Part shown: in pieces, positions 5,560-20,981 of the stretch | Position numbering within the stretch: position 1 is the first letter of the stretch | Layout: each line of letters opens with the position of its first letter | DNA from: Inquilinus sp. Marseille-Q2685 | GTDB taxonomy: Bacteria; Pseudomonadota; Alphaproteobacteria; DSM-16000; Inquilinaceae | Direction: 5' to 3' | Length of the DNA: 64,000 bases | Assembly: GCF_916619195.1 (NCBI RefSeq) | Contig: NZ_CAKAKL010000002.1 | Location: 62,001-126,000 of the forward strand | Program-made: the position numbers and the translations under genes | The notes under the pieces: model-generated | Databases searched by the model: none | Told to the model about the DNA's origin: nothing | Seen by the model: only the letters and a program-made list of their open reading frames with translations

Positions 5560-6015
5560 CTACCGCGCGCCGGCCGGCCACGCGCCGACCTGGAAGAGCC
5601 ACCCGAACCAGTCTTCGAGATGCCAGGTGTGGGTCAGCTTGCCATCGGCGATGTGGTGGAATTCGTGCATCGGCATCTCGAACGGCTTGCCGGTCGGCGC
5701 GATGCCGAACCATTCGCCGGTGTGGGTACCGGAGATGCGGCCGCGCACAGCCGCACGGCCGGGGGCGCCGATGATCTCGAAAAGCGTGATCCTCACGTCC
5801 GGAAAGGCCGCCACGAACTCGCCGATCAGCGGCTTCATTCCATCCCGTCCCGGCTTCTGATGGGGTGCCAGCGGAGTGTCTTGCCAGTCTTCGGTGACGG
5901 CCGTGTCGAGAAGATCGGGATCGGCCTCGTTGAAGGCGCGGTAGAGCGTCTCGACCGCGCGGCGCTCCACTGGCGTCAGGCCGAACACCTTCGGCGGGGT
6001 GGCTGTGTCAATCAT
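5560..6015 (-). CDS. SnoaL-like (NTF2-fold) protein
   Basis: 151 residues spanning a full SnoaL/polyketide-cyclase-like NTF2 fold. It has the typical ALYRAFNEAD helix, a loop near GRDGMKPLI, and the strand pair GTHTGEWFGIAPTGK followed by MPMHEFHHIADGKLTHTWHLED. These proteins bind or isomerise small hydrophobic molecules, and no specific substrate can be assigned. It is the first gene of the minus-strand operon and is divergent from the LysR gene at 6107. Confidence 0.82.
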   Translation of the reverse strand: MIDTATPPKVFGLTPVERRAVETLYRAFNEADPDLLDTAVTEDWQDTPLAPHQKPGRDGMKPLIGEFVAAFPDVRITLFEIIGAPGRAAVRGRISGTHTGEWFGIAPTGKPFEMPMHEFHHIADGKLTHTWHLEDWFGWLFQVGAWPAGAR

Positions 6016-6106: not shown

Positions 6107-7036
6107 GTGATGGATTTATACGGCATAGATTTGAACCTGCTGGTCGCCTTCGACGCGCTGATGGCGGAGCGTAGTGTGACGCGGGCGGGAATACGGATCG
6201 GCCGCACACAGCCGGCCATGAGCGCCGCGCTGTCGCGCCTGCGCGCGCTGTTGCGTGATGAGCTATTCGTGCGCGGCCCGAACGGCTTGGAGCCGACGCC
6301 AAGGGCTCTCGATCTCGCCGAGCCGCTGGCGCACGCGCTTGCCGAGATTCAGCGCACGCTCGAATTCACCCAGGAGTTCACTCCGGCGACTTCCACGGCG
6401 TCGTTCAAGCTCGGGCTATCCGACCATCCGACATTCGTGCTGCTGCCGCAATTGTTGGTCGCGCTCAGGGGAGAAGCCCCGGGCCTCACGCTGAACATCC
6501 GCAACTTCACCAATCGCGACGACGCCATCGCCATGCTTGACGCGGGCGAAGCCGACATGACCATCGGTGTGCCTTCGAGCCCGGTCGGCCGGATTCTAAC
6601 GCGCCCGCTCTTCGAGGAGCGCTTCGTGAGCATCGTGCGCAAGGATCATCCGGCGGCCGACAGACCGCTGAACATGGAGACGTTCCTCTCCCTGTCGCAT
6701 CTGTTGGTATCCCCCGAGAATGAGAGGTCCGGCGTGGTCGACGCCGCGCTCGCCAAGCAGGGCCTGAAGCGACGGCTGTCTGTGACGCTTCCGTATATGT
6801 ATGCGGCGCCGCTGCTGATCGCGTCGTCCAACATGATCGCCACCTTGATGACAGGGGTGGTGACAGCTTCTGGCCAGGCCGACCGGCTCTGCGTGCTGCA
6901 GCCGCCGCTCGACCTCGATGCGGTCCAGTTCTCGTTATCCTGGCATCGCCGCAATGACGCACATCCGGGGCAGCGATGGTTCCGTGACTGCATTGCCGCG
7001 CTGTTTCCATCCGAGCCGGAGCGCCGTCCCGAGTGA
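6107..7036 (+). CDS. LysR-family transcriptional regulator
   Basis: 309 residues from a GTG at 6107; the ATG at 6110 is equally possible. The N-terminal winged helix-turn-helix (about residues 7-65, LNLLVAFDALMAERSVTRAG...QPAMSAALSRLRALL) is followed by a periplasmic-binding-protein-like effector domain (about 93-300). It resembles the NodD/LinR-like LysR subgroup (DLYGIDLNLL start). It likely controls the divergent SnoaL-oxidoreductase-MBL operon. Confidence 0.92.
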   Translation: MMDLYGIDLNLLVAFDALMAERSVTRAGIRIGRTQPAMSAALSRLRALLRDELFVRGPNGLEPTPRALDLAEPLAHALAEIQRTLEFTQEFTPATSTASFKLGLSDHPTFVLLPQLLVALRGEAPGLTLNIRNFTNRDDAIAMLDAGEADMTIGVPSSPVGRILTRPLFEERFVSIVRKDHPAADRPLNMETFLSLSHLLVSPENERSGVVDAALAKQGLKRRLSVTLPYMYAAPLLIASSNMIATLMTGVVTASGQADRLCVLQPPLDLDAVQFSLSWHRRNDAHPGQRWFRDCIAALFPSEPERRPE

Positions 7037-7514
7037 TCGGACCGGCACTGCTGGGGAAGGGCCTTACGGCAACTGCGTGGCGAGCCTTCTTGAGGCTAGA
7101 TGCCGCCGTCGAGGATCAGCCCGGCGGGCAGTCCGAGGAGTTCCTGGAACCACAGTCCGCGCGGCGAGATCATGCCCGTCGTCTGCTCGAAGTGGACGAC
7201 CGGGACGCTGCCGACGATGCCGGCTGCCGCGAAGGCGCCGACTGCGGCGCCCGCCATGGCGGCGATGCCGGTCGGGTCGCTTTGTGGGATGGATCCGCCC
7301 CGGCCCGACGGGGCGGCGATGCAGGCGAGGATCGCGTCGACATCGCCCGCGGTGATCTCCGCGAGATCGTCGGCAGGCGGATCGGCCAGGGCGCGGCCGG
7401 GCGGATCGCCGACACCAGGGCTTTGCGCCGGGTGGGTTCGCGGTTCGAGACCGTGACACTCCACCACGCCGAACTGCGATCGGTATGCTGGATGACGTGA
7501 AACCCTGGCACGGG

Positions 7515-7549
7515 CCCCCGGGGGCGCGTGGGGGGAACGCCCCCGGGGG
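7515..7549. repeat. 12-bp all-GC inverted repeat hairpin
   Basis: CCCCCGGGGGCG at 7515-7526 is the exact inverse of CGCCCCCGGGGG at 7538-7549, with an 11-nt loop. Each arm also contains a self-complementary CCCCCGGGGG. It lies in the gene-poor stretch after the LysR gene. Confidence 0.8.
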
Positions 7550-7889
7550 AGGCGCCACGTCGGCATGGAGAATTCGACGCAGCGCCTATTCAACGAAGTC
7601 AGAAAGCAGAGCGATGAGCCGCACCGTCATCCGCTGCCCGTCAGCCGGCTGTGGTTCGAGTATGACCACGACGGTCAGCAGCATCCTGCCGAGACTCGAA
7701 GCGGCAGGATACCGGCCGAGATCAGCTTCTCCCGCCAGGGGAGGCCTGCCGGCGCATGGCCAAGTGCCACCCGACCTCGAATCCGGTCGCGACCAGCGCC
7801 AGCGAGACGGAACTTGAATGGGACGAGTGATTGAACCGCGACCATAACCTCTCCGCCAAGCCTCACCATTGTCGTGACCGGATCGGAAA

Positions 7890-7983
7890 CTGATACGGGC
7901 CACACGGCCGGAGTGTTCGTTCGCGCAGCATGGGATCGCGCCGAACACTTTCGCATCGTGGCGCGTATCAGCGCGTGAGGGAT
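7890..7983 (+). repeat. Foldable intergenic element, copy A
   Basis: About 94 nt beginning CTGATACGGGCC and ending near GGCGCGTATCAG-CGCGTGAGGGAT. The ends form an outer stem. Inside, AGTGTTCG and CGAACACT form a second perfect 8-bp stem. Copy B (19353-19445) shares the length, the outer stem, the GGAGTGTTCGT block and the GTGAGGGAT tail. It ends 74 nt before the TTG start of the SH3 protein gene. It could be an RNA element, an operator array or a mobile palindrome. Confidence 0.65.
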
Positions 7984-8057
7984 GTGGCCCGCCATCCGAT
8001 CGGACTTGTGGCGGTCCGGGCTTCCTGCGGGTGTGGTTTCCTAACAAGGAGGTACTG

Positions 8058-8573
8058 TTGCCGAAGAGAATTCTTGCCGCGGTCTCGGGAGCGGTCCTGA
8101 CCGTCCTCGCCGTCGCGACCGCTCATGCCGCCAGTCAGGCTGTCGCCGTCGCCAACGTCAACATGCGAGCCGGGCCGGGAACCGCTTATCCCATGATCAC
8201 CACGGTGCCGGCCGGCGTACCGATGACCACCTACGGATGCCTCTCCGACTATTCCTGGTGCGACGTCTCGTGGGGCGCTAACCGAGGCTGGCTGGCTGCC
8301 GGCTATATTCAGGTCACCTATCAGGGCAGCCCAGTGATCGTCACCCCGGCGGCCGGCCCCCGCATCAGTCTGACGATCGTCAATTTCGACCACGCATACT
8401 GGCAGGCCCACTATGTCGGGCGGCCGTGGTACGGTCGATGGGGCGACTACCACCGCACGACGACGCAGCGGGCAGGCGGCGTCGTATGTGGATCGGAGGC
8501 TTGCCGCTACGGCACGGTCCGACGCGGTCCGCTCGGCACCACCACCCATCATGGCGTGATCGAGCGGGATTGA
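8058..8573 (+). CDS. Secreted bacterial SH3-domain protein
   Basis: 171 residues from a TTG at 8058. This start is preferred because AAGGAGG lies 5 nt upstream (8046-8052) and the product then begins directly with a signal peptide (PKRILAAVSGAVLTVLAV...AHAA). An upstream in-frame GTG at 8031 has no ribosome site. The mature part carries an SH3_4-like repeat (VANVNMRAGPGTAYPMITTVPAG...CLSDYSWCDVSWGANRGWLAAGYI, about residues 35-95), usually a peptidoglycan-binding module. The His/Tyr-rich tail is unassigned. A repeat element in its leader suggests shared regulation with the gene at 19492. Confidence 0.82.
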   Translation: MPKRILAAVSGAVLTVLAVATAHAASQAVAVANVNMRAGPGTAYPMITTVPAGVPMTTYGCLSDYSWCDVSWGANRGWLAAGYIQVTYQGSPVIVTPAAGPRISLTIVNFDHAYWQAHYVGRPWYGRWGDYHRTTTQRAGGVVCGSEACRYGTVRRGPLGTTTHHGVIERD

Positions 8574-8758
8574 GATGTCCGGTGCGTCGCCAAGCGTCCC
8601 GATCCGGCGGTGTGGCTTCCCGGGGCGGTCCTGCGGAAGCGTCATGAGCGGACAGTTCGCAGGCAAGACGCCTTCCACTGAGGCGACTGCACAGCGGGCC
8701 GAGAGTTGTTCGATTCAGGTCGTCGGCTGCCGTCTCTTCCAAACAGAGGCAGATCTGC

Positions 8759-9961
8759 ATGTCAATTCCGCCACGGTTCAGTGGACGCGTGCAAGCATCC
8801 GGGCAGAATGTCCGCAGACATATCGCCACATTACTGCTCGGGACGACGCTGGTTTTGAGCGGCTGCGACGACAAGGGCAACACCTACGCGCCCCCGCCGC
8901 CGCCCGAGGTGAGCGTCGCACATCCTGAGGTTCGGGATGTGACGCGTTACCTGCATCTCACCGGCACGACCGCTGCCGTCGACAGTGTGGCTCTCGTCGC
9001 GCGTGTCCCCGGCTTCCTGACCTCAATCAACTACAGGGACGGGGCCAGGGTTAGGAAGGGCGATCTGCTCTTTGTCATCGAGCCCGATCAGTACAAGGCG
9101 CAACTGGCGCAGGCCGAGGCATCCATCACACAGGCGAAGGCGGCCCTGGCCAACGCGGAAGCGCAGTTCGACCGGCAGGATCGACTCGTCGCGCGTCAGG
9201 CGGCAGCAGTAGCCAATGTCGATACGGCGCGTGCGGACCGTGATACGGCGCGCGCGCAGTTGGAGGCGGCGGAGGCGAACCGGCAGATCGCCGCGATCAA
9301 TCTCGGATACACGCGGATCACGGCGCCGTTCGACGGCGCGGTGACGGATCATCTGGCCGACATTGGAACGCTGGTGGGATCTGGGAGCCCGACCACTCTT
9401 GCAACGATCGTCCAACTCGACCCGATCCATGTCGTCTTCACCGTCAGCGAGATCGACCTGTTGCGGATCCGTCGCCAGCTGCGCGAGCGGCAGGAGAAGC
9501 TCGTCGACCTTGGCCGCATCCCAGTGGAGATCGGTACACAGATCGAAAGCGGGTATCCCCATCGAGGAACGCTCGACTATGTGGCGCCGCTGGTCGACGC
9601 GGCAACTGGCACGCTTGCGGCGCGGGCGATCCTCGACAACAAGGATGCACGACTGTTGCCGGGCCTCTTCGTCCGCATCCGCATTCCCGTCGATGTGATC
9701 AAAGGGGCCCTTCGCGTGCCGGATGCCGCGGTCGGCACGGACCAGCAAGGATCCTACGTGCTCGTCGTCGACAAGGACAACGTGGTCCAGCAGCGTCACA
9801 TCGAGATATCAGGCGGCGAAGATGGCTTTCAAATCGTCACCTCGGGACTGAGCGCCGAGGATCGGATCGTGACCGGCGGCATCCAGCGGGCCGTGCCCGG
9901 CAGCAAGGTCGCGCCGCAGGACGCTCCACCCATTGCGGTCTCGGCGGCCGCCGAGCACTGA
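8759..9961 (+). CDS. RND efflux periplasmic adaptor lipoprotein (AcrA/MexA type)
   Basis: 400 residues. The lipobox LVLSGC (Cys near residue 36) indicates an inner-membrane lipoprotein. Order of parts: barrel-sandwich half (VALVARVPGFL...DGARVRKGDLLFVIEPDQY), an alpha-helical hairpin rich in Ala/Gln, the second lipoyl half (LGYTRITAPFDGAVTDHLADIGTLV), a beta-barrel and a membrane-proximal domain. It bridges the RND pump to an outer-membrane channel. The pump gene follows 16 nt downstream. No TolC-type gene is present nearby, so the channel must come from elsewhere. Confidence 0.94.
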   Translation: MSIPPRFSGRVQASGQNVRRHIATLLLGTTLVLSGCDDKGNTYAPPPPPEVSVAHPEVRDVTRYLHLTGTTAAVDSVALVARVPGFLTSINYRDGARVRKGDLLFVIEPDQYKAQLAQAEASITQAKAALANAEAQFDRQDRLVARQAAAVANVDTARADRDTARAQLEAAEANRQIAAINLGYTRITAPFDGAVTDHLADIGTLVGSGSPTTLATIVQLDPIHVVFTVSEIDLLRIRRQLRERQEKLVDLGRIPVEIGTQIESGYPHRGTLDYVAPLVDAATGTLAARAILDNKDARLLPGLFVRIRIPVDVIKGALRVPDAAVGTDQQGSYVLVVDKDNVVQQRHIEISGGEDGFQIVTSGLSAEDRIVTGGIQRAVPGSKVAPQDAPPIAVSAAAEH

Positions 9962-9977
9962 TGGATCGGACAATCCG

Positions 9978-12900
9978 ATGTTCTCCAGATTCTTCATCGA
10001 GCGGCCGGTCCTGGCGAATGTGATCGCTTTCGTCACGCTCCTGATCGGCGGCGTTGCATTCCTTCAGCTTCCTGTCGCGCAGTACCCCGACATCGTGCCG
10101 CCGACGGTGCAGGTGACGGTCCGCTATCCCGGTGCCAGCGCACGCACCGTCATGGACACGATCGCTTTGCCGATCGAGCAGCAGGTCAACGGCGTGCCCG
10201 GCATGCTCTACATGCAGTCCACCAGCGCGAGCGATGGTGTCTACTCCCTGGTGGTGACGTTCGAGATCGGCACCGATCCCGATCAGGCACAGATCCTGGT
10301 CCAGAACCGGGTCAGCGCGGCGGAGGCGCAGCTTCCTGATGCCGTGCAGTCGCAAGGCATCACGGTCAGAAAGAGATCGACGTCGATTCTCGAATTCGTC
10401 GCTCTCACCTCGTCGAACAATCGCTTCGACAGCCTCTTCCTGGCGAACTACGCCAAGATCAACATGGTGGACCAGCTCGCACGCCTGCCCGGCGTCGGCG
10501 ACGTCAGCATCTTTGGCGCGGGCGACTATGCCATGCGGATCTGGCTCGATCCGGGCCTGCTGCAGGCGCGCGGTCTGACGCCGAGCGACGTCGTGGCGGC
10601 GCTGCGCCAGCAAAGCCGGGATGTCTCGGCCGGCCAGCTCGGCATGCCCCCGATCGGAGCCAGCCAGGGATTCCAATACACGATCGACGTGACCGGACGG
10701 CTCGACCAGGTCGCTCAGTTCGAGAATGTCGTCGTCAAGTCGGAGCCCGACGCGGGCGGCAGGATCACCCGCGTGCGCGACGTCGCGCGGGTGGAGCTCG
10801 GATCCAGATCCTATGGTCAGATCTTCCGGATGAATGGCACGCCGGCAGCCGCGATCGCCATCAGCCAGCTGCCGGACGCAAACGCCCTCGACGTGGCCAA
10901 TGCCGTCGCCGCAAAGATGGCCGAACTCGCCAAGGGCTTTCCCGACGGCATCGCCTACAGCATCCCCTTCGACACGACCGCCTTCGTCAATGCCGCGATC
11001 CACCAGGTCTACAAGACCCTGATCGAGGCGTGCTTCATCGTGCTCGCCGTCATCCTGCTCTTTCTTCAGGACTGGCGGGCGATGCTGGTCCCGGCGACGA
11101 CGGTTCCCGTCACCTTGATCGGAGCATTCGCCGCCATGGCGATGCTCGGCTTCAGCCTGAACATGTCGACGCTGTTCGCGCTTGTGCTGGCGATCGGCAT
11201 CGTCGTCGACGACGCGATCGTCATCGTGGAGGGAACCGCGCGGCACCTTGAACGTGGCCTGTCGGGTCCGGCCGCGGCCGAGAAGGCGATGGGCGAGCTC
11301 TTTGGCCCGATCGTCGGCATCACGCTTGTTCTGGTTGCCGTCTTCCTCCCGGCCGCCTTCCTGCCCGGCTTGACGGGCCGCCTCTATCAGCAGTTCGCGC
11401 TGGTCATCGCGGCGACCGCCGTCATCAGCGCGATCAACGCCGTGACCCTCAAACCCACCCAGGCCGCTCTGTGGATGCGGCCACCAAAGCCCCTGGCCCG
11501 GCGCGGTATCGTCTTTCGAGGGTTCGAGCGGGCATTCGGTGCCCTTGAACGAGGCTACGAGCGCGCGCTCCGCCACGTGCTGCGTATGAAGTTGCTCAGT
11601 GCGGCGACAGGCCTCGTCCTCATCGGTGTCGCTGGATTCGGACTAACGAGGGTGCCGAGTGCATTCCTGCCGCTTGAAGATCAGGGCTATCTGCTCGTCG
11701 CCGTCCAGCTCCCCGGCGGCGCGGCACTGTCCCGAACGGACAAGACGTTGGAGCGCGTGTCGCAGATTGCACGAACGATCCCGGGCGTGGCGGATGTCAT
11801 AACCATCGCCGGCGTGTCGGCGCTGGAGGGCAATGCATCGTTGTCGAGCGCGGGCCTCGCCTATGTGGTGATGAAGCCATGGGATGAGCGCGGCAAGGCG
11901 GAGGGCCTGCTCCAGACCTATCAGGCACTGTCGGGTCAGCTCGCATCGCTCGATGACGGCCTGGCGATCGTCGTGCCGCCGCCGTCGATTCAAGGCATCG
12001 GCAATGTCGGCGGCTTCAACATGCAGGTGGAGCTCCGTGACGGCAGTTTCGATTTCGCCAAGCTCAACGAGCTCGGCAGGACGCTTGCCGCAAACGCGGT
12101 CTCCCAGTCCCGGCTTCAGCAGGTCCAGATGACCTCCGGTTCCCTCGCTCCGCAGCTGGAACTGTCCGTCGACCGCATCAAGGCGGCGACAATGGGCGCA
12201 TCCGTCGATGATGTTTTCAGTGCGCTGTCGGGCTATCTGGGCTCGAGCTACGTCAATCAGTTCACGCGTTTCGGCCATACGTTCCAGATCTATACACAGG
12301 CTGACGACTCCTTCCGGCGGATCGAGCAGGATATCGGTGCGTTGAAGGTGAGGAATGCATCGGGCAATTCGGTGCCCATCGCGACCCTCGTCGAGATCCG
12401 CGCCAAGGCCGGGCCTGCGCTGATCAGCCTCTACAACCTGTATCCATCCGCAACAGTGATCGGACGGCAGCAGGAGGGCCTGAGTTCGGGTGAAGCCATG
12501 GCACTGATGGATCAGGTCGCCGCACGAACGCTGCCGGCCGGAAGCGGCTATGATTGGACCGGCATCTCCTTTCAGGAGAAACTGGCCGGCGGCCAGGTCT
12601 ACATCGCCTTCGGCTTGGCGCTGGTGCTGGTCTATTTCGTGCTCGCGGCGCAGTACGAAAGCTGGCTCGGGCCGATCCCCGTGATCCTGTCGGTGCCGCT
12701 CGCCCTCCTGGGCACAGTCTTCGTACTGCTGGCGCTCGGATTGCCGAACACGCTCTACACCCAGATCGGCCTGATCCTGCTCGTGGCGTTGGCGGCCAAG
12801 AACGGAATCCTGATCGTCGAGTATGCCCGTGATCTCCGCATCAAGGAAGGCAAGCCGCTGGTCGAAGCGGCCGCCGAAGCCGCCAGGCTCCGTTTCCGCC

Positions 12901-13151
12901 CCATCATCATGACTTCGATCGCCTTCATCCTCGGCATGGTTCCACTCGTCTTCGCGACGGGCGCGGGCGCCAACGCCAGCCGATCGATCGGCATCTCGGT
13001 CGTCAGCGGGATGCTGATCTCCACGGTGCTCAGCGTCTTTGTCGTCCCAGCCTTCTTCATCGTGCTGCGGGCGATCGAGGAGTGGTGGTCCCTGCGGCGC
13101 CTTGCGGTCAGATCCGCCTCCACCGCGAGACTCCCGATCGACCACGGGTGA
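9978..13151 (+). CDS. RND multidrug efflux permease (HAE1, AcrB type)
   Basis: 1057 residues from the ATG at 9978, the classic MFSRFFIERPVLANVIA start; the longer frame from 9933 is not supported. It has twelve predicted membrane helices with two large periplasmic loops, normal length for HAE1 pumps. The proton-relay Asp pair in helix 4 is present (AIGIVVDDAIVIVE), as are the GxPxF-like FFIERP amphipathic start and the helix 10-12 region (NGILIVEYARDL). It exports drugs or hydrophobic compounds using the proton gradient, together with the adaptor encoded just upstream. Confidence 0.95.
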   Translation: MFSRFFIERPVLANVIAFVTLLIGGVAFLQLPVAQYPDIVPPTVQVTVRYPGASARTVMDTIALPIEQQVNGVPGMLYMQSTSASDGVYSLVVTFEIGTDPDQAQILVQNRVSAAEAQLPDAVQSQGITVRKRSTSILEFVALTSSNNRFDSLFLANYAKINMVDQLARLPGVGDVSIFGAGDYAMRIWLDPGLLQARGLTPSDVVAALRQQSRDVSAGQLGMPPIGASQGFQYTIDVTGRLDQVAQFENVVVKSEPDAGGRITRVRDVARVELGSRSYGQIFRMNGTPAAAIAISQLPDANALDVANAVAAKMAELAKGFPDGIAYSIPFDTTAFVNAAIHQVYKTLIEACFIVLAVILLFLQDWRAMLVPATTVPVTLIGAFAAMAMLGFSLNMSTLFALVLAIGIVVDDAIVIVEGTARHLERGLSGPAAAEKAMGELFGPIVGITLVLVAVFLPAAFLPGLTGRLYQQFALVIAATAVISAINAVTLKPTQAALWMRPPKPLARRGIVFRGFERAFGALERGYERALRHVLRMKLLSAATGLVLIGVAGFGLTRVPSAFLPLEDQGYLLVAVQLPGGAALSRTDKTLERVSQIARTIPGVADVITIAGVSALEGNASLSSAGLAYVVMKPWDERGKAEGLLQTYQALSGQLASLDDGLAIVVPPPSIQGIGNVGGFNMQVELRDGSFDFAKLNELGRTLAANAVSQSRLQQVQMTSGSLAPQLELSVDRIKAATMGASVDDVFSALSGYLGSSYVNQFTRFGHTFQIYTQADDSFRRIEQDIGALKVRNASGNSVPIATLVEIRAKAGPALISLYNLYPSATVIGRQQEGLSSGEAMALMDQVAARTLPAGSGYDWTGISFQEKLAGGQVYIAFGLALVLVYFVLAAQYESWLGPIPVILSVPLALLGTVFVLLALGLPNTLYTQIGLILLVALAAKNGILIVEYARDLRIKEGKPLVEAAAEAARLRFRPIIMTSIAFILGMVPLVFATGAGANASRSIGISVVSGMLISTVLSVFVVPAFFIVLRAIEEWWSLRRLAVRSASTARLPIDHG

Positions 13152-13175
13152 GGTGTTAATCGGCGCGCGACCTTG

Positions 13176-13390
13176 GAGACCGCTTGGAAGCTTAGCTTTA
13201 TGAGAGACTCGGTGGAGGAGGAGGCAGCCCATGGCGACGTGGATCATGGCCTTGGAGACAGCGACGCGGGCTTCGTGGTCGCGGACCAGCCGTCGCCATC
13301 ATGTCATCCACCCGATGGTCCGCTCGGCGACCCAGCGCCGCGGCCGGATTCTGAAGTCGGGCTCGCGGCTGATGCGACGACGACCTCGAT
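13176..13390 (-). pseudogene. IS5-family transposase 3' remnant
   Basis: Reading the minus strand gives RPRRWVAERTIGWMT-stop-WRRLVRDHEARVAVSKAMIH, the conserved C-terminal block of IS5/IS427-type DDE transposases (R-W-V-x-E-R-T-x-G-W). A TGA at 13299-13301 sits where an Arg codon is expected. The N-terminal two thirds are missing. The remnant abuts the end of the RND pump gene. Confidence 0.82.
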
Positions 13391-13435
13391 CACGAAGTCG
13401 AGGTAGGCGGCCTTATTTCCGGATGGAGCTCGCCT

Positions 13436-14284
13436 TCAGATAGCGGATGCAAGCGCCCAGATCCGTTTTGCCTGAGGGCTGGCTTTCGGGGCGCAGAACA
13501 GCGAGACGTCGTAGCCGAGATCCTCCCGGCAGTCGCACACGACAAGCCGGCCGGAGGCGATATCGGCTTCGACCATAGTTTCCGGCAGCACACCGCGTCC
13601 GTCGCCCGCGAGACAGTGCGCCCGGATGTCGGCCGCCATGCCGTGCTCCACCTCCTTGGTCGCAGGGACGGCGACTCTGCACGCTTGCCAGATCTGGCCG
13701 ATGTAGGTCCGTGAATCCGACACATGAAGCGGCAGTGGTTCGTCTTTGCTCGCACCGGGAGGCGCGACCAGCACGAGACGATCGCGGGCGATATCGACGG
13801 ATCGGAATACGGCGAACTCGTCGGCCTGCGGCACCCGGGGGTGACGCGTGACGAGGGCAAGATCGCACTCCGATCGAGTGAGCATCCTCGCCACCATGTC
13901 GTGATTGGCGATGCGGGGCGCGAAGCTCGCCTTGGGCAGGCGCCGCAGCAATCGCTTCTTGAAAGCCGGAAAGACGCTTACGGTCGCGCTGTGCGGCATT
14001 GCGATGCTCACCGCGCCGTCCTTCACGCTCCAGGGGAGATCAGCGCCGCGGAACCCGTCGAGCTCCGCCAGAATGCCGCGGGCCTTGGGCACGAGGTCCT
14101 CTCCCGCCTGCGTCAGCGCAAGCGGCCTGCCGCGGCGGTCGATCAGGTCGCGGCCGAGCCACATCTCGAGAGCGCGGAGTCGCTTGCTCAGGTTCGATTG
14201 CGTGGTGTTCCGCAGTTCTGCCGCCCGCGTCAGGCTCATGCTCTCGGAGACGCAGAGGAAGTCGCGCAGAAGCTCGATATTCAT
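13436..14284 (-). CDS. LysR-family transcriptional regulator
   Basis: 282 residues from the ATG at 14284 (MNIELLRDFL, the usual LysR start); an upstream in-frame ATG at 14341 would overlap the beta-lactamase gene. The helix-turn-helix is at about residues 17-36 (SLTRAAELRNTTQSNLSKRLRALE). The effector domain follows. It lies 53 nt downstream of the class D beta-lactamase gene on the same strand, so the two may be cotranscribed. Whether it regulates the beta-lactamase is not shown by the sequence. Confidence 0.9.
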   Translation of the reverse strand: MNIELLRDFLCVSESMSLTRAAELRNTTQSNLSKRLRALEMWLGRDLIDRRGRPLALTQAGEDLVPKARGILAELDGFRGADLPWSVKDGAVSIAMPHSATVSVFPAFKKRLLRRLPKASFAPRIANHDMVARMLTRSECDLALVTRHPRVPQADEFAVFRSVDIARDRLVLVAPPGASKDEPLPLHVSDSRTYIGQIWQACRVAVPATKEVEHGMAADIRAHCLAGDGRGVLPETMVEADIASGRLVVCDCREDLGYDVSLFCAPKASPQAKRIWALASAI

Positions 14285-14337
14285 GTCGTGTCGTATCCCG
14301 GCTTTCCCGGCCGGGACATTGGTTGCCCGGCACGGCT

Positions 14338-15144
14338 TCACCGGCTCAGAATGCCGTTCTCCGAGAATAGATCATCAAGCAAAGAATCTCGGGCGCGAAA
14401 GCCCGGGGGCGAGGGCTGGCGCTCGCTGTCCTGGATCAGCCGCGCGAAGACGACCGTGCCCCCGTTGCGCTCCGCCCAACCCACGAACCACCCGAAGGGT
14501 CTGGCCGGCTCGCCATCGGCGCCTCGCGATGCTCCGGCGCCGGTCTTGCCAAAGACATGCCAGCCGCTGGGCCGGACGCCCTGGTCCATGATCGTCGCCG
14601 TGTTCTCGACGGCGGCGTCGCTGACCGGCAGCTCGTGCCGGAGCAGCTTGCGCAGGAACGCCACCTGTTCGGCGGGCGATATCTGCAGGGACGAACTCAG
14701 CCAGGCGTGGGTCAGCCCGTTACGGGCCCCGGGGTCGCCCGCCAGATCGCGGTTGCCGTAGTCGAAGGCGGTGACATAGGCGGAATACCGGTCCGCCCCC
14801 AGCCGCTGCGTGACCTGCTGCGAATACCAGATGACGGAATCCCGCATCCACGTCGCCGGGGTCGTCGGCCGCCGCCATTCGGGCCATGCGTCGATGTAGC
14901 CTTCCTTGAACGGCAGCTCCGGCCGGCTCGGCGAGGTCAGGATGCCGGCATCGAAGGCCATGAGGCTGATCGCGATCTTGAAGGTCGAGGCCGGCGACAT
15001 CCGCCGCCCGCAATCGCCTTGATCGACGACGGCTTCCCCTGTCTCCGCCGTCAGAACGATCGTGCAGATCGTGCGCGTCTCCGCCCAAGACGGGAGGGTG
15101 AGCAGAGAAAGAAATGCGGAGAGAGAAAACAGAACCTGCTTCAT
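14338..15144 (-). CDS. bla: Class D (OXA-type) beta-lactamase
   Basis: 268 residues with a signal peptide (about 1-21, ending SWA). All class D motifs are present at the right spacing: S53-T-F-K56 (acylated serine and carbamylated lysine), S103-V-I, Y129-G-N131 and K200-T-G202. The W-x-W-x-P-like lead and the GWHVFGKTGAG block are also present. It should hydrolyse penicillins in the periplasm; the spectrum cannot be read from the sequence. The next gene downstream is a LysR regulator rather than the divergent AmpR layout. Confidence 0.94.
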   Translation of the reverse strand: MKQVLFSLSAFLSLLTLPSWAETRTICTIVLTAETGEAVVDQGDCGRRMSPASTFKIAISLMAFDAGILTSPSRPELPFKEGYIDAWPEWRRPTTPATWMRDSVIWYSQQVTQRLGADRYSAYVTAFDYGNRDLAGDPGARNGLTHAWLSSSLQISPAEQVAFLRKLLRHELPVSDAAVENTATIMDQGVRPSGWHVFGKTGAGASRGADGEPARPFGWFVGWAERNGGTVVFARLIQDSERQPSPPGFRARDSLLDDLFSENGILSR

Positions 15145-15508
15145 CGGCTTGTCCGGCGTGGTGCGTCTCCTTCCATAGCCGCGGGGTAGACGAGCCGTCC
15201 AAGTCGGGTTGGGAATATCGCGAGCGCAAGCTGGAATAGTGAGGCGCGGCCGCCGGCCCGAAGGGGCATGGCCGTCTTCCCATCAATGCAGCCTGTCGAC
15301 TCTATTGACCGCGCTCCGGCCGGGTGCCGCAGGGCGCCCGGCCGGCTTTCAGAGGGCCAACAGGCTCAGCCCCGTTTGGCAGCTCACGGTCCCGATGATG
15401 CGCGGGCAGGAACAGTTGCCGGTCGGGGTGCGCCGGTGCGCCCTTCTCAATCGGCGATCACAGACGGCTCCTGTCCGTCAATGCGCGTAGCTTGCCGTGC
15501 GGCGGGCG
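15145..15508. other. Intergenic stretch with a GC stem-loop
   Basis: No gene seen. CCGGCCGGG (15316-15324) pairs with CCCGGCCGG (15337-15345) and is followed by CTTTC on the plus strand. It may end transcription of the minus-strand Cys-rich gene to its right, but a proper U-tract is lacking in that direction. Confidence 0.4.
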
Positions 15509-15769
15509 TCACTTCTGCTTGAGGGAGGCCAGCGCCTGTTTGCAGCCGTCGGACACCTTGTCCGCGTGCTGCTGGAGGCAGGCGAGGCCCCGGCCGCCAC
15601 CCGGCTGGACGTCGGAGCACAAGGCTTGATAGTCAGCACGGCAGGCCTGCATCGCCTGCTGGGCCGCAGGGCTCTGCTGAGCCATGGCAGCGCCCGGCGC
15701 CGCGACAGCGCCGATCATGACAACGGTAAGGGCCAGGTAGGCGGCCGCGATATGGCTCCAAGAAGGCAT
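15509..15769 (-). CDS. Small secreted cysteine-rich-repeat protein
   Basis: 86 residues. A signal peptide (about 1-30, ending GAAMAQ) precedes one Cys-rich repeat (C-RADYQALCSDV...LACLQQHADKVSDGC), matching the GLG1/Cys_rich_FGFR-like family found in alphaproteobacterial periplasmic proteins. The four Cys probably form two disulfides. It sits at the end of the ECF sigma/envelope gene run, and its function is unknown. Confidence 0.75.
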   Translation of the reverse strand: MPSWSHIAAAYLALTVVMIGAVAAPGAAMAQQSPAAQQAMQACRADYQALCSDVQPGGGRGLACLQQHADKVSDGCKQALASLKQK

Positions 15770-15896
15770 TGGTTCGATTCCTTGGTGGTCGTTGCGAGGT
15801 GACGCCGATCCTGTCGATCCACTCGGTCACCGATCCTGATACGAGGGGGAGGCGGTCGAGTTTTCGGATGGCGGGGGTATTATCTCGACAGGCGCC

Positions 15897-16697
15897 TCAT
15901 GATCGCGCGGCCGCCCCGGCGGCACAGCTGCCGGCTGGCGTAGCCGCCGGCGGCCATTGCGACCAGCCGACGTCCTGGAAATAGTCCTGGACCTGCTCGG
16001 TGATGGCCGATGCCGCATGCTCGATATCGGCGCTCGATCCTCCCCGCAGGTTGAGAGCGAGTCCGGCGCCCCCGGCGATTGCGGATCTCACGATATTGCC
16101 GGTCGCATATCCGACTCCAGCCGGAAGGAGCAGGCCCGGCTTGTGGCCGCTGTCGGCGCTGGTGTCGAACGCAACCGCCGGCTCGGGAGCCATGAGATCG
16201 GGAAGCACGAGCTTGACTGCAGCCTGGAGCTTGGACTGGCCCATGCCGAAGCCGACGACGATCCGCTGCAGCGTGCTGCCCTGGTCGAGCTGTGTCAGGC
16301 TGATGTCCAGGATGGCCGCGCTGACGGGAGAGGCCCCGTGGCCGATTGGCTCTGCCGGCACTCCCGAATTGCAGAGATCGGAGGCGATCTGTCGGGCGAG
16401 ACTCCTCGCTGCCTCCTCCGCCTCCGCGCTGGCAGCCTCTCCTGGGGTCTCGGCGACGCTCGCCCGGACAAGGACCTGTTCCGGCTGCCGAGCTGGCTGG
16501 ACCGCGCCGTACTGGATATCGGAGACGCGAGCCCCGCCGCACGCCGCGAGAAGCAGGGTGAGAAGGATGATCGGGCTGGGTAGGACGCGGCCCGACGATC
16601 GTCGGATTTTCAGGCCGTGCCCCTCCCTCCGCCAAGAGGGCCGGACGGCATGCAGCCACGCTGCCGCGGGGGCGTGCCCTTCGACTTGCGTTTCCAT
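15897..16697 (-). CDS. DUF4410-type lipoprotein
   Basis: 266 residues, with a lipobox LLLAAC at about residue 53 preceded by a hydrophobic run. The first roughly 35 residues are basic and may not belong to the protein, but no better start codon lies closer to the lipobox. The body shows the DUF4410 pattern (VVGFGMGQSKLQAAVKL) and alternating Ala/Gly-rich segments. It is probably an outer-membrane lipoprotein. It follows the ECF sigma operon by about 134 nt on the same strand. Confidence 0.68.
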   Translation of the reverse strand: METQVEGHAPAAAWLHAVRPSWRREGHGLKIRRSSGRVLPSPIILLTLLLAACGGARVSDIQYGAVQPARQPEQVLVRASVAETPGEAASAEAEEAARSLARQIASDLCNSGVPAEPIGHGASPVSAAILDISLTQLDQGSTLQRIVVGFGMGQSKLQAAVKLVLPDLMAPEPAVAFDTSADSGHKPGLLLPAGVGYATGNIVRSAIAGGAGLALNLRGGSSADIEHAASAITEQVQDYFQDVGWSQWPPAATPAGSCAAGAAARS

Positions 16698-16831
16698 GGT
16701 TTCTTTCCGTGCTGGAGCAAATCTCGCCAGCCATCGGGCGATGGCGCCCCTGATACGGGCCCGTCAGCACGGAGTTTCCGGCCCTGGCGGCTGTTTCTCC
16801 CTTCTTGCGACAGTGCGGCCGGGGAGCGTGT

Positions 16832-17308
16832 TCACTGCTTGGGACGATAGGTGCTCAGACTCTGCCGGCCTTCATCGGACATGTGCAGGATGGCATCGGC
16901 GAGCAGATCACCGACGATCGGTGCGATCTTCTGGCGGGCGACGACCGCCGCGTCGATGCTGGATCGGAGCGCACCCGGGTCGATTGGTGTTCGGGAGACC
17001 TCCTTCCGCGCCGCCTCGGCAGCCTGCAAGTACTGCTCCTGTGCTTCCCGGAGCACCGGAAGCCGGGCCATGAGGGCCTGCCGGAGGGCAGCGCGGTCGT
17101 TCGCCGGCAGGGCGTCGGCTGCTCTTTGCAGAGCCATCTGGGCAATCGCAAGCCCGGGTGTCTGCGCGGAATCGCCGACGAAGGACGGCAGATCCGTTCG
17201 GGAACGCCACAGCTGGGCCCCCACGAACGCCACGAAGAAGACGTTGACGGCGAGGGATGCGGCGAGCGCGATCTTGACGACCCGCCCCTGGGTAAAGAAC
17301 GGCTTCAT
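16832..17308 (-). CDS. Periplasmic metal-resistance/Spy-like protein
   Basis: 158 residues from the ATG at 17308 (MKPFF). This ATG overlaps the upstream stop as ATGA, so translation is probably coupled. One N-terminal membrane anchor (about 12-34) precedes an all-helical Ala/Gln-rich domain resembling the Metal_resist/CnrR-ZraP fold (ALPANDRAALRQALMARLPVLREAQEQY). Such proteins sense metals or chaperone in the periplasm, often beside ECF sigma factors, as here. Confidence 0.7.
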   Translation of the reverse strand: MKPFFTQGRVVKIALAASLAVNVFFVAFVGAQLWRSRTDLPSFVGDSAQTPGLAIAQMALQRAADALPANDRAALRQALMARLPVLREAQEQYLQAAEAARKEVSRTPIDPGALRSSIDAAVVARQKIAPIVGDLLADAILHMSDEGRQSLSTYRPKQ

Positions 17309-17760
17309 TGGATCAACCACGTGATGTCGACGGCGGAAGCGTCGAGCACGGCCACGAGCGGAGAGGTCGTGCCCGGCGGACTCTGCGGCCGAGGTGAGGG
17401 CATCAGGACGTAGCCCGTGAACCAGCCCGCGACCAGCATCCCGGCGAAGGCGGCGCCGATTGGTCGCGACAGCAGCCAGCCCCAGGTCCGGACCGACGGA
17501 GTCTCGTTGCGGATCCGGCGCAGAGCGGCGTCGACGATCGCATTCGCGCGGATCGGGTCCACCGGGTGATCGTGATCGGGCATGAACGGGTAGTCGGCGC
17601 GCATCGCCTGCTCCCAGATCGTCCGCGCCTCGGGGGACTCGTCTCGAAGCCGTAGCGCAGGGCGCCGGTACTTGTCGGGCCAGGTTTCGAGCTCAGGTCC
17701 GTGCTGCCTGATCAGGTGCGTGAAGACATCCAGGTCCATGGCTCGAAGCCCCTCTGTCAC
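17305..17760 (-). CDS. Anti-sigma-like single-pass membrane protein
   Basis: 151 residues from a GTG whose last bases overlap the sigma factor stop (GTGA). An ATG seven codons in (17739) is the alternative start. The N-terminal about 90 residues are soluble, then one membrane helix (about 99-115: IGAAFAGMLVAGWFTGYVLM) and a short tail. It has no clear Pfam anti-sigma motif, but its size, topology and 4-nt overlaps with both neighbours fit a cognate anti-sigma factor. Confidence 0.6.
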   Translation of the reverse strand: MTEGLRAMDLDVFTHLIRQHGPELETWPDKYRRPALRLRDESPEARTIWEQAMRADYPFMPDHDHPVDPIRANAIVDAALRRIRNETPSVRTWGWLLSRPIGAAFAGMLVAGWFTGYVLMPSPRPQSPPGTTSPLVAVLDASAVDITWLIQ

Positions 17761-18338
17761 GGTGCGGATGGTTTCAGGAAGCGTTCGGCGGCCTGCCGGG
17801 CGCGGTGCAGGAGGGACCAGAAGGCGCGCAGCCGGACGTTGAGGATGTCCGCCGCCTCCTGTCCGCTCAGCTCCTCATGGTAGAAGAGGATCAGCGCCGC
17901 ACGCTGGCGCGCCGGCAAAGCGTCGAGCGCCGAGCGCAGTTGGTTCAAATCGGCCTTTCGCGCCAGGATGTCATAGACGCCGGGTGTCGGGTCGGGAATG
18001 TCCATGGCTTCGTCGAGAGTTTCGGTCCGCCGGCCCCTGAGCCGGTCGAGGCAGATCCGATAGGTGATCGTGTAGATCCAGGTCGACAGGCGCGACTTGC
18101 GCGGATCCCAGCGTCGGGCGTTGAGCCAGACCCGCAGCAACACCTCCTGCGCGACCTCGTCCGCGTCGGCCGCCGATCCCAGCATCTTCTGCGCGAGCCT
18201 CAGGATCCGGCCCAACTGCCGCTCGGCCAGGGACCGGAACGCGGCCTCGTCTCCGGCGATCACCCGTGCCATCAGCGCCTCGTCGTCCGGCGCCTCCGGC
18301 TCCGCCGTGGCGAGAAGGGGAGCAGAGTGTGTCGTCAT
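17757..18338 (-). CDS. ECF-family RNA polymerase sigma factor
   Basis: 193 residues with region 2 (DEALMARVIAGDEAAFRSLAERQL...DADEVAQEVLLRVWLNARRW, about 20-85) and region 4 (LDALPARQRAALILFYHEELSGQEAADILNV, about 135-170). Regions 1 and 3 are absent, as in ECF sigma factors. It overlaps the anti-sigma-like gene by 4 nt. It probably directs its own operon and envelope genes nearby. Confidence 0.93.
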   Translation of the reverse strand: MTTHSAPLLATAEPEAPDDEALMARVIAGDEAAFRSLAERQLGRILRLAQKMLGSAADADEVAQEVLLRVWLNARRWDPRKSRLSTWIYTITYRICLDRLRGRRTETLDEAMDIPDPTPGVYDILARKADLNQLRSALDALPARQRAALILFYHEELSGQEAADILNVRLRAFWSLLHRARQAAERFLKPSAP

Positions 18339-18408
18339 CGGCGGGCCGAACCCTGGATGTCGGTTTGATCATGACCCTTTCTCCACGAACCACCTATTCG
18401 GTTGACCG

Positions 18409-19311
18409 TCATAGCGCCGTCATCGGCCGGACTGGTTGCGGGCGGATGTCGGCGCCGTCGGGCGCGGCGGTCACCGGGGTGGCGCCGGGAGGCCCGATCA
18501 CCAGCCGCAGGCGCTGCCGCCATCCGCGCGTCCGGCGCAGATCCCGGGCGATCTCCAGCCACTCCCGAAAGGTGACCTTGACCGGGTTGCTGCTGGCCGG
18601 GACGCCCAACAGGCCGTACGTCACTGGGGTGTCGTCACGCTCGGCCGTGAAGGTGCCGAAGAGGCGATCCCAGATGATGAGCACACCCCCGAAATTGCGG
18701 TCGAGATAGATCTCGTTCTTCCCGTGATGGACGCGGTGGTGCGAGGGCGTGTTCAGGACCCATTCGAGCGGTCCGAGCCGGCCGACCAGGTCGGTGTGAA
18801 TCCAGAACTGATAGAAGAGGTTGAGGGCCATCGTCCCCGCCACCGCCAGCGGATGGAACCCGAGCAGGTAGAGCGGCAGGAAGACAAGCCAGCCGCCCGA
18901 GATCACCTCGGTCGCGCCGAGCCGGAACGCGCTGCCGAGGTGAAGATGTTCGGGCGAATGATGGACCGAGTGGGAGGCCCACAGCCAGCGGACCTCGTGG
19001 CCCAGCCGATGCGCCCAGTAGTAACAGAACTCGACGCCCAAAAAGAGCAGCGCCAGCGCCCACCATGTGTCGACCGGAACCGTCGCCATCCGATGCTGGT
19101 AGACGAAGAAGGCCACCGGCAACACCACGATGGGCAGGAGAAGCCGCCCCGGGATCCGGATCAGCATCACGCCGACGGAAACCAGCAACTCCCGCCACGG
19201 ATAGGCCCTTCGGCGCACGGCCAGATACCAGATCATCTCGATGGCGACCGCCGCGAGAACGAGCCAGTACAGCCTGAACGGAAGCAGTGACTCAACAACA
19301 TGCATGGACAT
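18409..19311 (-). CDS. Sterol desaturase/fatty acid hydroxylase-family membrane protein
   Basis: 300 residues from the ATG at 19311; the frame upstream of it is not protein-like. The integral membrane protein carries the three His clusters of the di-iron hydroxylase superfamily: HRLGH, HSVHH and HHRVHH. The enzyme should hydroxylate or desaturate lipid chains in the inner membrane. It ends 70 nt upstream of the ECF sigma factor start on the same strand and may share its operon. Confidence 0.88.
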   Translation of the reverse strand: MSMHVVESLLPFRLYWLVLAAVAIEMIWYLAVRRRAYPWRELLVSVGVMLIRIPGRLLLPIVVLPVAFFVYQHRMATVPVDTWWALALLFLGVEFCYYWAHRLGHEVRWLWASHSVHHSPEHLHLGSAFRLGATEVISGGWLVFLPLYLLGFHPLAVAGTMALNLFYQFWIHTDLVGRLGPLEWVLNTPSHHRVHHGKNEIYLDRNFGGVLIIWDRLFGTFTAERDDTPVTYGLLGVPASSNPVKVTFREWLEIARDLRRTRGWRQRLRLVIGPPGATPVTAAPDGADIRPQPVRPMTAL

Positions 19312-19352
19312 GAGCCCTGTCTGGTCCCGGGTCCGATGCGGCCCGGTCCCAC

Positions 19353-19445
19353 CTGATACGGACCGCCCGGCGGGAGTGTTCGTCGCGATGATCGGGTCTT
19401 GGGCGGAAACTTCCGGGCCGAGGCCCGTACCAGCGTGTGAGGGAT
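19353..19445 (+). repeat. Foldable intergenic element, copy B
   Basis: 93 nt matching copy A at 7890-7983: CTGATACGG at the left end, GGAGTGTTCGT near the middle-left, and CCGTACCAGCGTGTGAGGGAT at the right end. The outer stem is kept with one substitution. It ends 46 nt before the start of the secreted protein gene at 19492. Confidence 0.65.
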
Positions 19446-19491
19446 CCCGCCGGCCGATCGGCCAGGCGCCTCCACACGAAAGGTTGCTCAG

Positions 19492-20418
19492 ATGAGATTC
19501 GGCATTCTGGTGCCGGGGCTGGTCGGTATCACGCTCCTGACGATGCCGGGCGCCAGCGCCTGGGAGACCCACGGCGCGGTCGGAGCCTGGAGGGGTGGGT
19601 TCACCGGTTCCCGCTCCGGCAGCTGCGCCGCGGGCAGTTGCTCAGGCGTCCGGACCGTCACCGGCCCCGACGGCAGCACCGCGACCGGCACACGCAGCAT
19701 CACGCGGACCGCGCCGGGCCAGATCTCGTCCTCGCGCAGCATCGCGGGTCCGAACGGCAACACCGCCTCGCGCTCGGGCAGCACCAGTTGCTCCGACGGC
19801 AGCTGCACGCGCGACGTCACGGTGACCGGCCCGGATGGCCAAAGCGTCAGCCACTCCGGCACCGTGACACGGACGGCGCCGCGTTGGTTCACCAATTCCG
19901 GGACGTTGACCGGCCCGAACGGTGGCACGGTCTCCACCACCGGGGTCACCGGCTGCGCCGGAGGTGTCTGTCGTCACGCGGGCGTGGTGACCGGCCCGGC
20001 CGACGGCTCCGTCGTCGTCAGGGGCGGTGTCGTGGCACCGCCATTGTATGGCGGACCAGCCGCGGTCGTGGTCACTCCGCCGCCGGCCGTGGTCGTTCCG
20101 CGCCCGCGGCCAGTGGTCGTGGCGCCGGCACCCGCGGCGGCCGTATCGGTGACGGCAACGGTCCCAGCTCCGGCGGCCGTGGTGGCGCCCGCGCCGATGG
20201 TTGTCGCTCCGCCGCCGCTGGTGGTGCCTGCGGCCGTTGTCGCGGCGCCCTCGGTCAGCCTGACCGTGGGAGTTGCCCGTCCGCCGGTCGTGGTCGCGCC
20301 CCTGCCGGTCGTCGTGCCGCGGCCTGCCGTCGTGGTCACCCGGCCGCCGGTCGTCTACCGGCGGCCCGTTGCCGTCCGGCCGGGCGTTGTCGTCCGGGGA
20401 CCGGTCGTCTGGAGATGA
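19492..20418 (+). CDS. Secreted low-complexity repeat protein
   Basis: 308 residues. A signal peptide (about 1-23, ending ASA) is followed by an approximately 160-residue Gly/Ser/Thr-rich part with repeated TGPDG/TGPNG units and paired Cys residues (GSCAAGSCSG, TSCSDGSC, GCAGGVC). The last roughly 130 residues are almost only Val, Pro, Ala and Arg. No enzyme motif is seen. An envelope or cell-surface structural role is plausible. GAAAGG precedes the ATG. Its stop overlaps the next start as ATGA. Confidence 0.75.
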   Translation: MRFGILVPGLVGITLLTMPGASAWETHGAVGAWRGGFTGSRSGSCAAGSCSGVRTVTGPDGSTATGTRSITRTAPGQISSSRSIAGPNGNTASRSGSTSCSDGSCTRDVTVTGPDGQSVSHSGTVTRTAPRWFTNSGTLTGPNGGTVSTTGVTGCAGGVCRHAGVVTGPADGSVVVRGGVVAPPLYGGPAAVVVTPPPAVVVPRPRPVVVAPAPAAAVSVTATVPAPAAVVAPAPMVVAPPPLVVPAAVVAAPSVSLTVGVARPPVVVAPLPVVVPRPAVVVTRPPVVYRRPVAVRPGVVVRGPVVWR

Positions 20419-20981
20419 ATGCCCGCTGGTGCGCCCTGACGGGGGCAATCCTGCTCGGAGGCTGCGCCGTCGCGCCTCCGGCAGGCCCGAAGGTTCTTGC
20501 GCTGCCGTCGCAGGGCAAGAGCTTCGCCCAGTTCCAGAACGACGACACGACGTGCCGTCTGTTCGCCAAGCAGCGGACAACGCCGCAGGACCCGAACCAA
20601 GCCGTCAAGAGCAGCGGCCTGGGCCATGCGGCTGCGGGCGCCGGGATTGGGGCGGCGGCCGGCGCGCTGCGGGGCTCGGCCAGCGGCAACGCCGGAGATG
20701 GTGCAGCCGTCGGCGCCGGCACGGGATTGCTGTTCGGATCGGTCCTCGGAGGGCAGGCGAACCGCGCCTCCGCGGCGGACCTCCAGAACCGGTACGACAT
20801 CGCCTACACCCAATGCATGGTGGCGAAGGGCAATTCGGTCCAAGGCCCGTCTTCCCCGCCGCCAACCCCCGTCTACGCATCCCCGGTCTACGTCGCGCCG
20901 GCCTATCCGTATGCCTACGCCCCGGTCTATGCGCCGGCGCCGACCGTCTCCTTTGGGGCTGTCTATGCAAGGCGATACTGA
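20415..20981 (+). CDS. Glycine-zipper (YMGG-like) lipoprotein
   Basis: 188 residues from the ATG at 20415, overlapping the previous stop by 4 nt. The lipobox ILLGGC (Cys 17) marks an outer-membrane lipoprotein. A Gly-zipper segment (AAGAGIGAAAGALRGSASGNAGDGAAVGAGTG, split over about 73-104) is followed by the conserved RYDIAYTQCMVAKGN block and a Pro/Tyr-rich tail. It is cotranscribed with the secreted repeat protein. Confidence 0.82.
   Translation: MNARWCALTGAILLGGCAVAPPAGPKVLALPSQGKSFAQFQNDDTTCRLFAKQRTTPQDPNQAVKSSGLGHAAAGAGIGAAAGALRGSASGNAGDGAAVGAGTGLLFGSVLGGQANRASAADLQNRYDIAYTQCMVAKGNSVQGPSSPPPTPVYASPVYVAPAYPYAYAPVYAPAPTVSFGAVYARRY

Follow-up and report, generated by a model that had tools for sequence, protein, structure and literature searches.

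In the 64,000 nucleotides of the Inquilinus sp. Marseille-Q2685 genome analysed here (the window), two similar elements, copy A (7890-7983) and copy B (19353-19445), stand before genes for exported proteins, and each has arms that appear to pair. What are these elements, and what might they control? The original prediction held them to be either a structured RNA with conserved pairing or a protein-binding dyad linked to envelope genes. We propose, with a probability of about 0.9, that A and B are divergent, back-to-back promoter pairs, most likely served by the ECF sigma factor encoded at 17757-18338.

That two copies exist at these positions is borne out. They have CTGATACGG, GGAGTGTTCGT and CGTAYCAGCGYGTGAGGGAT in common, and a blastn search of the whole genome (7,291,583 bases, 18 contigs) with A as query returned only A itself and B at E <= 0.001, the latter at 74% identity with an E value of 8.9e-10, so that their likeness reflects homology and not chance. 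With up to three mismatches, the left block is found at two places in the window, A and B, and in 0 of 100 shuffles; the right block likewise occurs at two places (shuffle mean 0.02). GGAGTGTTCGT alone, with one mismatch allowed, is not significant (two or more occurrences in 20 of 100 shuffles). The distances to the downstream genes, 74 nt from A and 46 nt from B, had been given correctly, the starts being TTG 8058 and ATG 19492. At A, the inverted repeat has 30-nt arms that are 77% complementary; the claim that the outer arms pair in both copies holds only in part, as pairing in B is incomplete, with an A-C at the fourth pair. A search for further copies gave a mixed answer: the genome contains no other close copy of the whole element, and copies of a single arm do precede genes. 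Among plasmid records, all 15 matches fell inside the SH3 gene.

Read outward, each 30-nt arm has the form expected of an ECF sigma promoter, CGAACACT-N14-CGTATCAG or a close variant: a predicted -35 element (CGAACACT or CGGAAACT) and, 14 nt further on, a predicted -10 element (CGTATCAG). Three of the four arms, the two of A and the left one of B, read CGAACACT-N14-CGTATCAG; the fourth, on the right of B, reads CGGAAACT-N14-CGTACCAG, so that motif and spacing recur in all four. Since the two promoters of a pair would point outward from a common centre, the apparent hairpin amounts to one DNA motif written twice in opposite directions. Two single sites with N15 spacing, which we first saw when reading the minus strand from 15100 to 19500, complete the set:

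7890..7919, minus strand: left arm of A, predicted ECF-type promoter CGAACACT-N14-CGTATCAG, 0 mismatches, toward a decayed desaturase start
7942..7971, plus strand: right arm of A, predicted promoter CGAACACT-N14-CGTATCAG, 0 mismatches, toward the SH3 gene
15836..15866, minus strand: single predicted ECF-type promoter CGAAAACT-N15-CGTATCAG, upstream of the cysteine-rich repeat gene, 25.4 bits held-out
16750..16780, minus strand: single predicted ECF-type promoter CGGAAACT-N15-CGTATCAG, upstream of the DUF4410 gene, 23.4 bits held-out
19353..19382, minus strand: left arm of B, predicted promoter CGAACACT-N14-CGTATCAG, toward the desaturase-sigma-antisigma-Metal_resist operon
19404..19433, plus strand: right arm of B, predicted promoter CGGAAACT-N14-CGTACCAG, 1 mismatch, toward the TGPDG gene

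ECF promoters are described as often carrying GAA at -35 and GT at -10 (PMC3511301). The window sites show the ECF layout of GAA(C) at -35 and CGT at -10, about 16-17 nt apart, with GAAC-N17-CGTATC in three arms and close variants at the other three sites. They also sit a short distance upstream of genes: CGTATC starts 94 nt upstream of TTG 8058 in the right arm of A and 49 nt upstream of ATG 19311 in the left arm of B, CGTACC starts 66 nt upstream of ATG 19492 in the right arm of B, and overall CGTA lies 49-94 nt upstream of an intact gene at five of the six sites, the sixth, the left arm of A, facing the decayed remnant.

How far does this exceed chance? A weight matrix built from the four A and B arms only gave the held-out single sites 23.4 and 25.4 bits, whereas no score above 17.5 arose in 20 first-order simulated sequences of 64 kb. 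These simulated sequences are the fair background; high scores among 107 'unrelated' loci are an unfair one, because those loci include some selected by the motif pattern as well as the ECF locus of an alphaproteobacterial MAG discussed below (G050), and the 2000 random pieces used in the scan upstream of ECF genes also contain true sites (14 at 17.5 or above). Searched across the whole genome at fixed spacing with up to three mismatches, the pattern matched 68 times with N14 and 69 times with N15. The five matches without mismatch and the one with a single mismatch are the six window sites; elsewhere there were three matches with two mismatches, the remainder having three, and no N14 or N15 site with fewer than two mismatches occurs in the genome outside the six. 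Reversed-pattern controls yielded 165 (N14) and 133 (N15) matches, so the three-mismatch class carries no signal. All six sites are confined to 11.5 kb, from 7890 to 19433.

Which genes do these sites face? Between B and the DUF4410 gene, the minus strand carries, in this order, the desaturase, ECF, anti-sigma-like and Metal_resist genes, the last three with overlapping ends. The left arm of B faces this operon and its right arm the TGPDG gene. The genes faced by the arms code for proteins that are exported or modify lipids:

8058..8573, plus strand: SH3-domain (PF08239) exported protein gene, start TTG 8058, proposed target
15509..15769, minus strand: cysteine-rich repeat (PF00839) exported protein gene, proposed target, with a homologue in Falsiroseomonas selenitidurans
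15897..16697, minus strand: DUF4410 protein gene, proposed target, with a homologue in Neoroseomonas lacus
16832..17308, minus strand: Metal_resist (PF13801) gene by domain match, proposed periplasmic sensor
17305..17760, minus strand: anti-sigma-like gene, one hydrophobic stretch, beside the ECF gene in four other loci
17757..18338, minus strand: ECF sigma factor gene (Sigma70_r2 and r4_2), proposed regulator
18409..19311, minus strand: fatty acid hydroxylase / desaturase family gene (PF04116), the first behind the left arm of B
19492..20418, plus strand: TGPDG-repeat exported protein gene, proposed target, with a homologue in F. selenitidurans

The best NCBIfam match of the ECF protein, NF004113, scores 194.8, under the cut-off of 208; the desaturase falls far under the cut-off of NCBIfam OlsE, and the TGPDG-repeat protein has no Pfam family. 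The product of 17305-17760 matches no Pfam or NCBIfam family either, and its position and single hydrophobic stretch suggest an anti-sigma factor. Because the ECF gene stands behind the desaturase, the 300 bases before it score only 5.7, and with no site of its own in front it would depend on read-through from the desaturase. Several neighbours lie close to these genes. A HlyD-type adaptor and a transporter, presumably RND-type by its sequence, are encoded on the same strand behind the SH3 gene (8759-13151, plus strand); they could be read from the right arm of A, although co-transcription is a guess. A glycine-zipper lipoprotein-like gene (20430-20978, plus strand) follows the TGPDG gene in the same orientation and possibly shares its transcript. 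The cluster also includes a PF00905 transpeptidase-family gene (14338-15144, minus strand), which resembles a class D beta-lactamase gene in size and look and has no site of the ECF-type motif.

Is the motif kept together with the ECF gene elsewhere? A search of genome contigs with an alignment of two ECF proteins gave 18 loci. The nearest relatives, 56-59% identical over the matched stretch, belong to four distinct alphaproteobacterial loci: an alphaproteobacterial MAG (contig G050:C58, judged by length and content to be one locus fetched twice, as L117 and L125), F. selenitidurans (L126), N. lacus (L127) and an Acetobacteraceae MAG (L128). We scanned the 300 bases before the ECF gene in 62 loci, of which two (L141, L142) were dropped as having no ECF match. 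Among the remaining 60 rows, six rows, representing these four loci, carry the motif at 17.6-23.4 bits; besides the window's own, the other 53 (duplicates included) reach at most 14.2 bits. The motif is therefore kept before the ECF operon at 56-59% ECF identity and missing in the more distant homologues examined: before ECF genes at 29-53% identity it was not found (best 14.2 bits), nor before a second Falsiroseomonas ECF gene at 52.9% (9.0 bits). In 385 genomes searched at class level with the ECF alignment at E <= 1e-55, four had matches, our own, G050, G129 and G395, the last two without the motif. Looser exact motif patterns in relatives gave scattered matches at chance level, and a motif scan of the loci of SH3 homologues from the same genus (33-38% identity) revealed no site.

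The divergent arrangement itself recurs. F. selenitidurans, N. lacus and L117 each have a further site of the form CGAGGATT-N14-CGTA(G/C)CA, which faces the ECF gene and stands back to back with the one already described; these second sites were recognised post hoc by their mutual likeness, and with the window's matrix they score 13.5 bits in F. selenitidurans and 12.0 in L117, that of N. lacus lying under the 12-bit listing. In the Acetobacteraceae MAG, the only site of at least 12 bits near the operon faces the ECF gene (5849-5878, plus strand), and the gene on its other side resembles threonine synthase by its sequence. Across the divergent promoters lie a Cys-rich and then a TGP-repeat gene in F. 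selenitidurans, a DUF4410 and then a Cys-rich gene in N. lacus, and a Cys-rich gene in L117. Three of their products match the window's proteins: the F. selenitidurans TGP-repeat (E 3e-20) and Cys-rich (E 2e-17) proteins and the N. lacus DUF4410 protein (E 1e-26). Both the anti-sigma-like and the Metal_resist protein have counterparts in all four loci, 32-37% and 31-40% identical to the window's, respectively.

Could the 94-nt element instead be transcribed and fold into a structured RNA leader that controls the exported-protein genes? Both copies lie close upstream of genes, and the fold of A is indeed equalled by just 1 of 200 shuffles (z -3.48). B, however, does not share this fold (z -0.56, 58 of 200 shuffles as good), and on the minus strand the z values are -3.21 for A and -1.54 for B. 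B breaks 7 of the 29 pairs in the fold of A and keeps one through a double change, and 241 of 500 shuffles do as well, a comparison of two sequences with little power; the consensus fold of A and B is weak and unlike that of A. Single arms without a partner precede two other genes, and if the right arms of A and B are promoters, the hairpin would lie upstream of the transcript. Functional pairing should raise the likeness of spacers within a locus, so it argues against pairing that in the five divergent pairs (A, B, L126, L127 and L117) the spacers agree at 35 of 70 positions within a pair and at 279 of 560 between different loci; the promoter-element positions agree between paired arms at 66 of 80. 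Searched against Rfam, the window had nothing above the gathering scores, and the surroundings of A and B had nothing at E <= 1. With pairs lost, arms standing singly and spacers no more alike within than between loci, the claim of a structured RNA with conserved pairing fails, and we hold a leader of this kind to be very unlikely indeed. The proposed dyad linked to envelope genes came near the truth as we read it: the genes are exported or lipid-modifying, and the arms are promoter-like.

The arms could also be operators for a conventional dimeric transcription factor, each made up of one or two half-sites, rather than sigma promoters. An inverted arrangement is typical of the operators of such factors and fits A and B, and two LysR-type genes, recognised from their translated sequence, lie nearby (6107-7036, plus strand; 13436-14341, minus strand). 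Yet a single arm is not palindromic and in two cases stands alone, oriented to a gene start, and the tightly spaced ECF -35/-10 layout and the company that the motif keeps with the ECF operon across families speak against a dimeric-factor operator, which we therefore consider very improbable. Between the first LysR-type gene and A, the stretch 7036-7660 shows no clear gene and four reading frames with no Pfam family; it may be further decayed DNA. A small mobile element or repeat could also be suspected, given two similar copies with inverted ends. This we regard as extremely improbable: only two close copies exist in 7.29 Mb, blastn of A against 60 relatives found no dispersed copies (best match outside its own genome E 0.024), and the homology extends to the left into a desaturase remnant, as in a segmental duplication:

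7661..7845, minus strand: decayed remnant of a desaturase gene start, in several frames, left of A

The remnant consists of pieces resembling the desaturase start, in order and in three frames (E 3e-4, 0.002 and, for the weak third piece, 1.0). For 7600-7890, the best tblastn score is 27.3 bits, compared with at most 24.6 in 500 shuffles of two-base blocks, and blastn aligns 7665-7762 with the desaturase gene (69%, E 1.5e-4). A thus probably arose long ago by partial duplication of the B region, which brought the promoter pair to a new neighbour, the SH3 gene; the left arm of A, facing a decayed gene, may drive nothing.

How might the promoter pairs and the ECF factor work together? On the motif, its spacing and position before genes, its confinement to the cluster and its conservation with the ECF clade, all read from the sequence, we build a circuit in which promoter activity, the cognate sigma factor, the anti-sigma and sensor roles and the signal are inferred. 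We envision that at rest the adjoining membrane protein (17305-17760) probably holds the ECF sigma factor, and that the factor is released once the periplasmic Metal_resist protein senses a signal, conceivably a metal as the domain of that protein alone would suggest. Freed, it would activate its own operon via the left arm of B, and the TGPDG, DUF4410, cysteine-rich and SH3 genes via the other sites. We thus favour a self-activating ECF circuit that also comprises an anti-sigma factor in the membrane and a sensor in the periplasm, resembling CnrYXH and the rpoE8 operon. In Cupriavidus metallidurans, CnrYXH comprises the ECF sigma CnrH, the membrane anti-sigma CnrY and the periplasmic sensor CnrX, and CnrH, released on a metal signal, activates the operon that encodes it as well as one for efflux (PMC4803752). 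The window likewise encodes a sigma factor, a putative membrane anti-sigma and a Metal_resist sensor together, whereas gene order and targets differ. CnrX presumably belongs to the same Metal_resist family, PF13801. Against the PDB, CnrH is not among the nine matches of the window's ECF protein at E <= 1e-8, and the Metal_resist protein matches no chain at E <= 1.

The rpoE8 operon of Azospirillum brasilense is tricistronic, with genes for a sigma factor, a hypothetical protein and a periplasmic heavy metal sensor. It shares this three-gene layout with the window, and its promoter is reported to be activated in E. coli by RpoE8 itself and by RpoE6 (PMC12826043). A. ramasamyi and A. lipoferum have annotated operons built in this way, whose ECF proteins are 47% identical to the window's; the window motif, however, is missing before these ECF genes (4.9 and 4.8 bits, respectively), and the A. 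brasilense fliC2 promoter, CGCCAG-16-CGTGAG, is unlike it (PMC12826043). RND genes also lie upstream of the A. ramasamyi and A. lipoferum ECF operons. The ECF26 factors RpoE1 and RpoE4 of Sinorhizobium meliloti, likewise an alphaproteobacterium, pair with membrane anti-sigma proteins, control small regulons and regulate themselves (PMC3511301, PMC6180224). The proposed system shares these traits, its anti-sigma being putative, whereas the promoters given for RpoE1 and RpoE4 contain GGAA and CGTC or CGTT in place of the window's CGTATCAG (PMC3511301, PMC6180224). Among the literature matches listed, titles and abstract openings mention neither this ECF clade nor its motif, the nearest being the Azospirillum rpoE8 operon, and those on divergent or bidirectional ECF promoters describe no such promoter pair.

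The system would be of an ordinary kind, and the regulon new. In place of the proposed RNA element stands a putative small regulon, concrete enough for its promoters, regulator and targets to be named. It also offers a candidate for the promoter motif of an ECF clade that has a Metal_resist partner, and illustrates how a divergent promoter pair can be mistaken for a conserved hairpin. We would give about even odds to a wider scenario, whereby an ECF clade of Acetobacteraceae-like and other alphaproteobacteria, as yet undescribed, fires its regulator and envelope-effector operons together from one conserved promoter-pair cassette, which here was duplicated together with a desaturase start and captured the SH3 gene, and perhaps the RND pump genes, while other effectors came to stand apart with single promoters. 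The locus would then hint at how a regulon may grow through duplication of its promoter pair.
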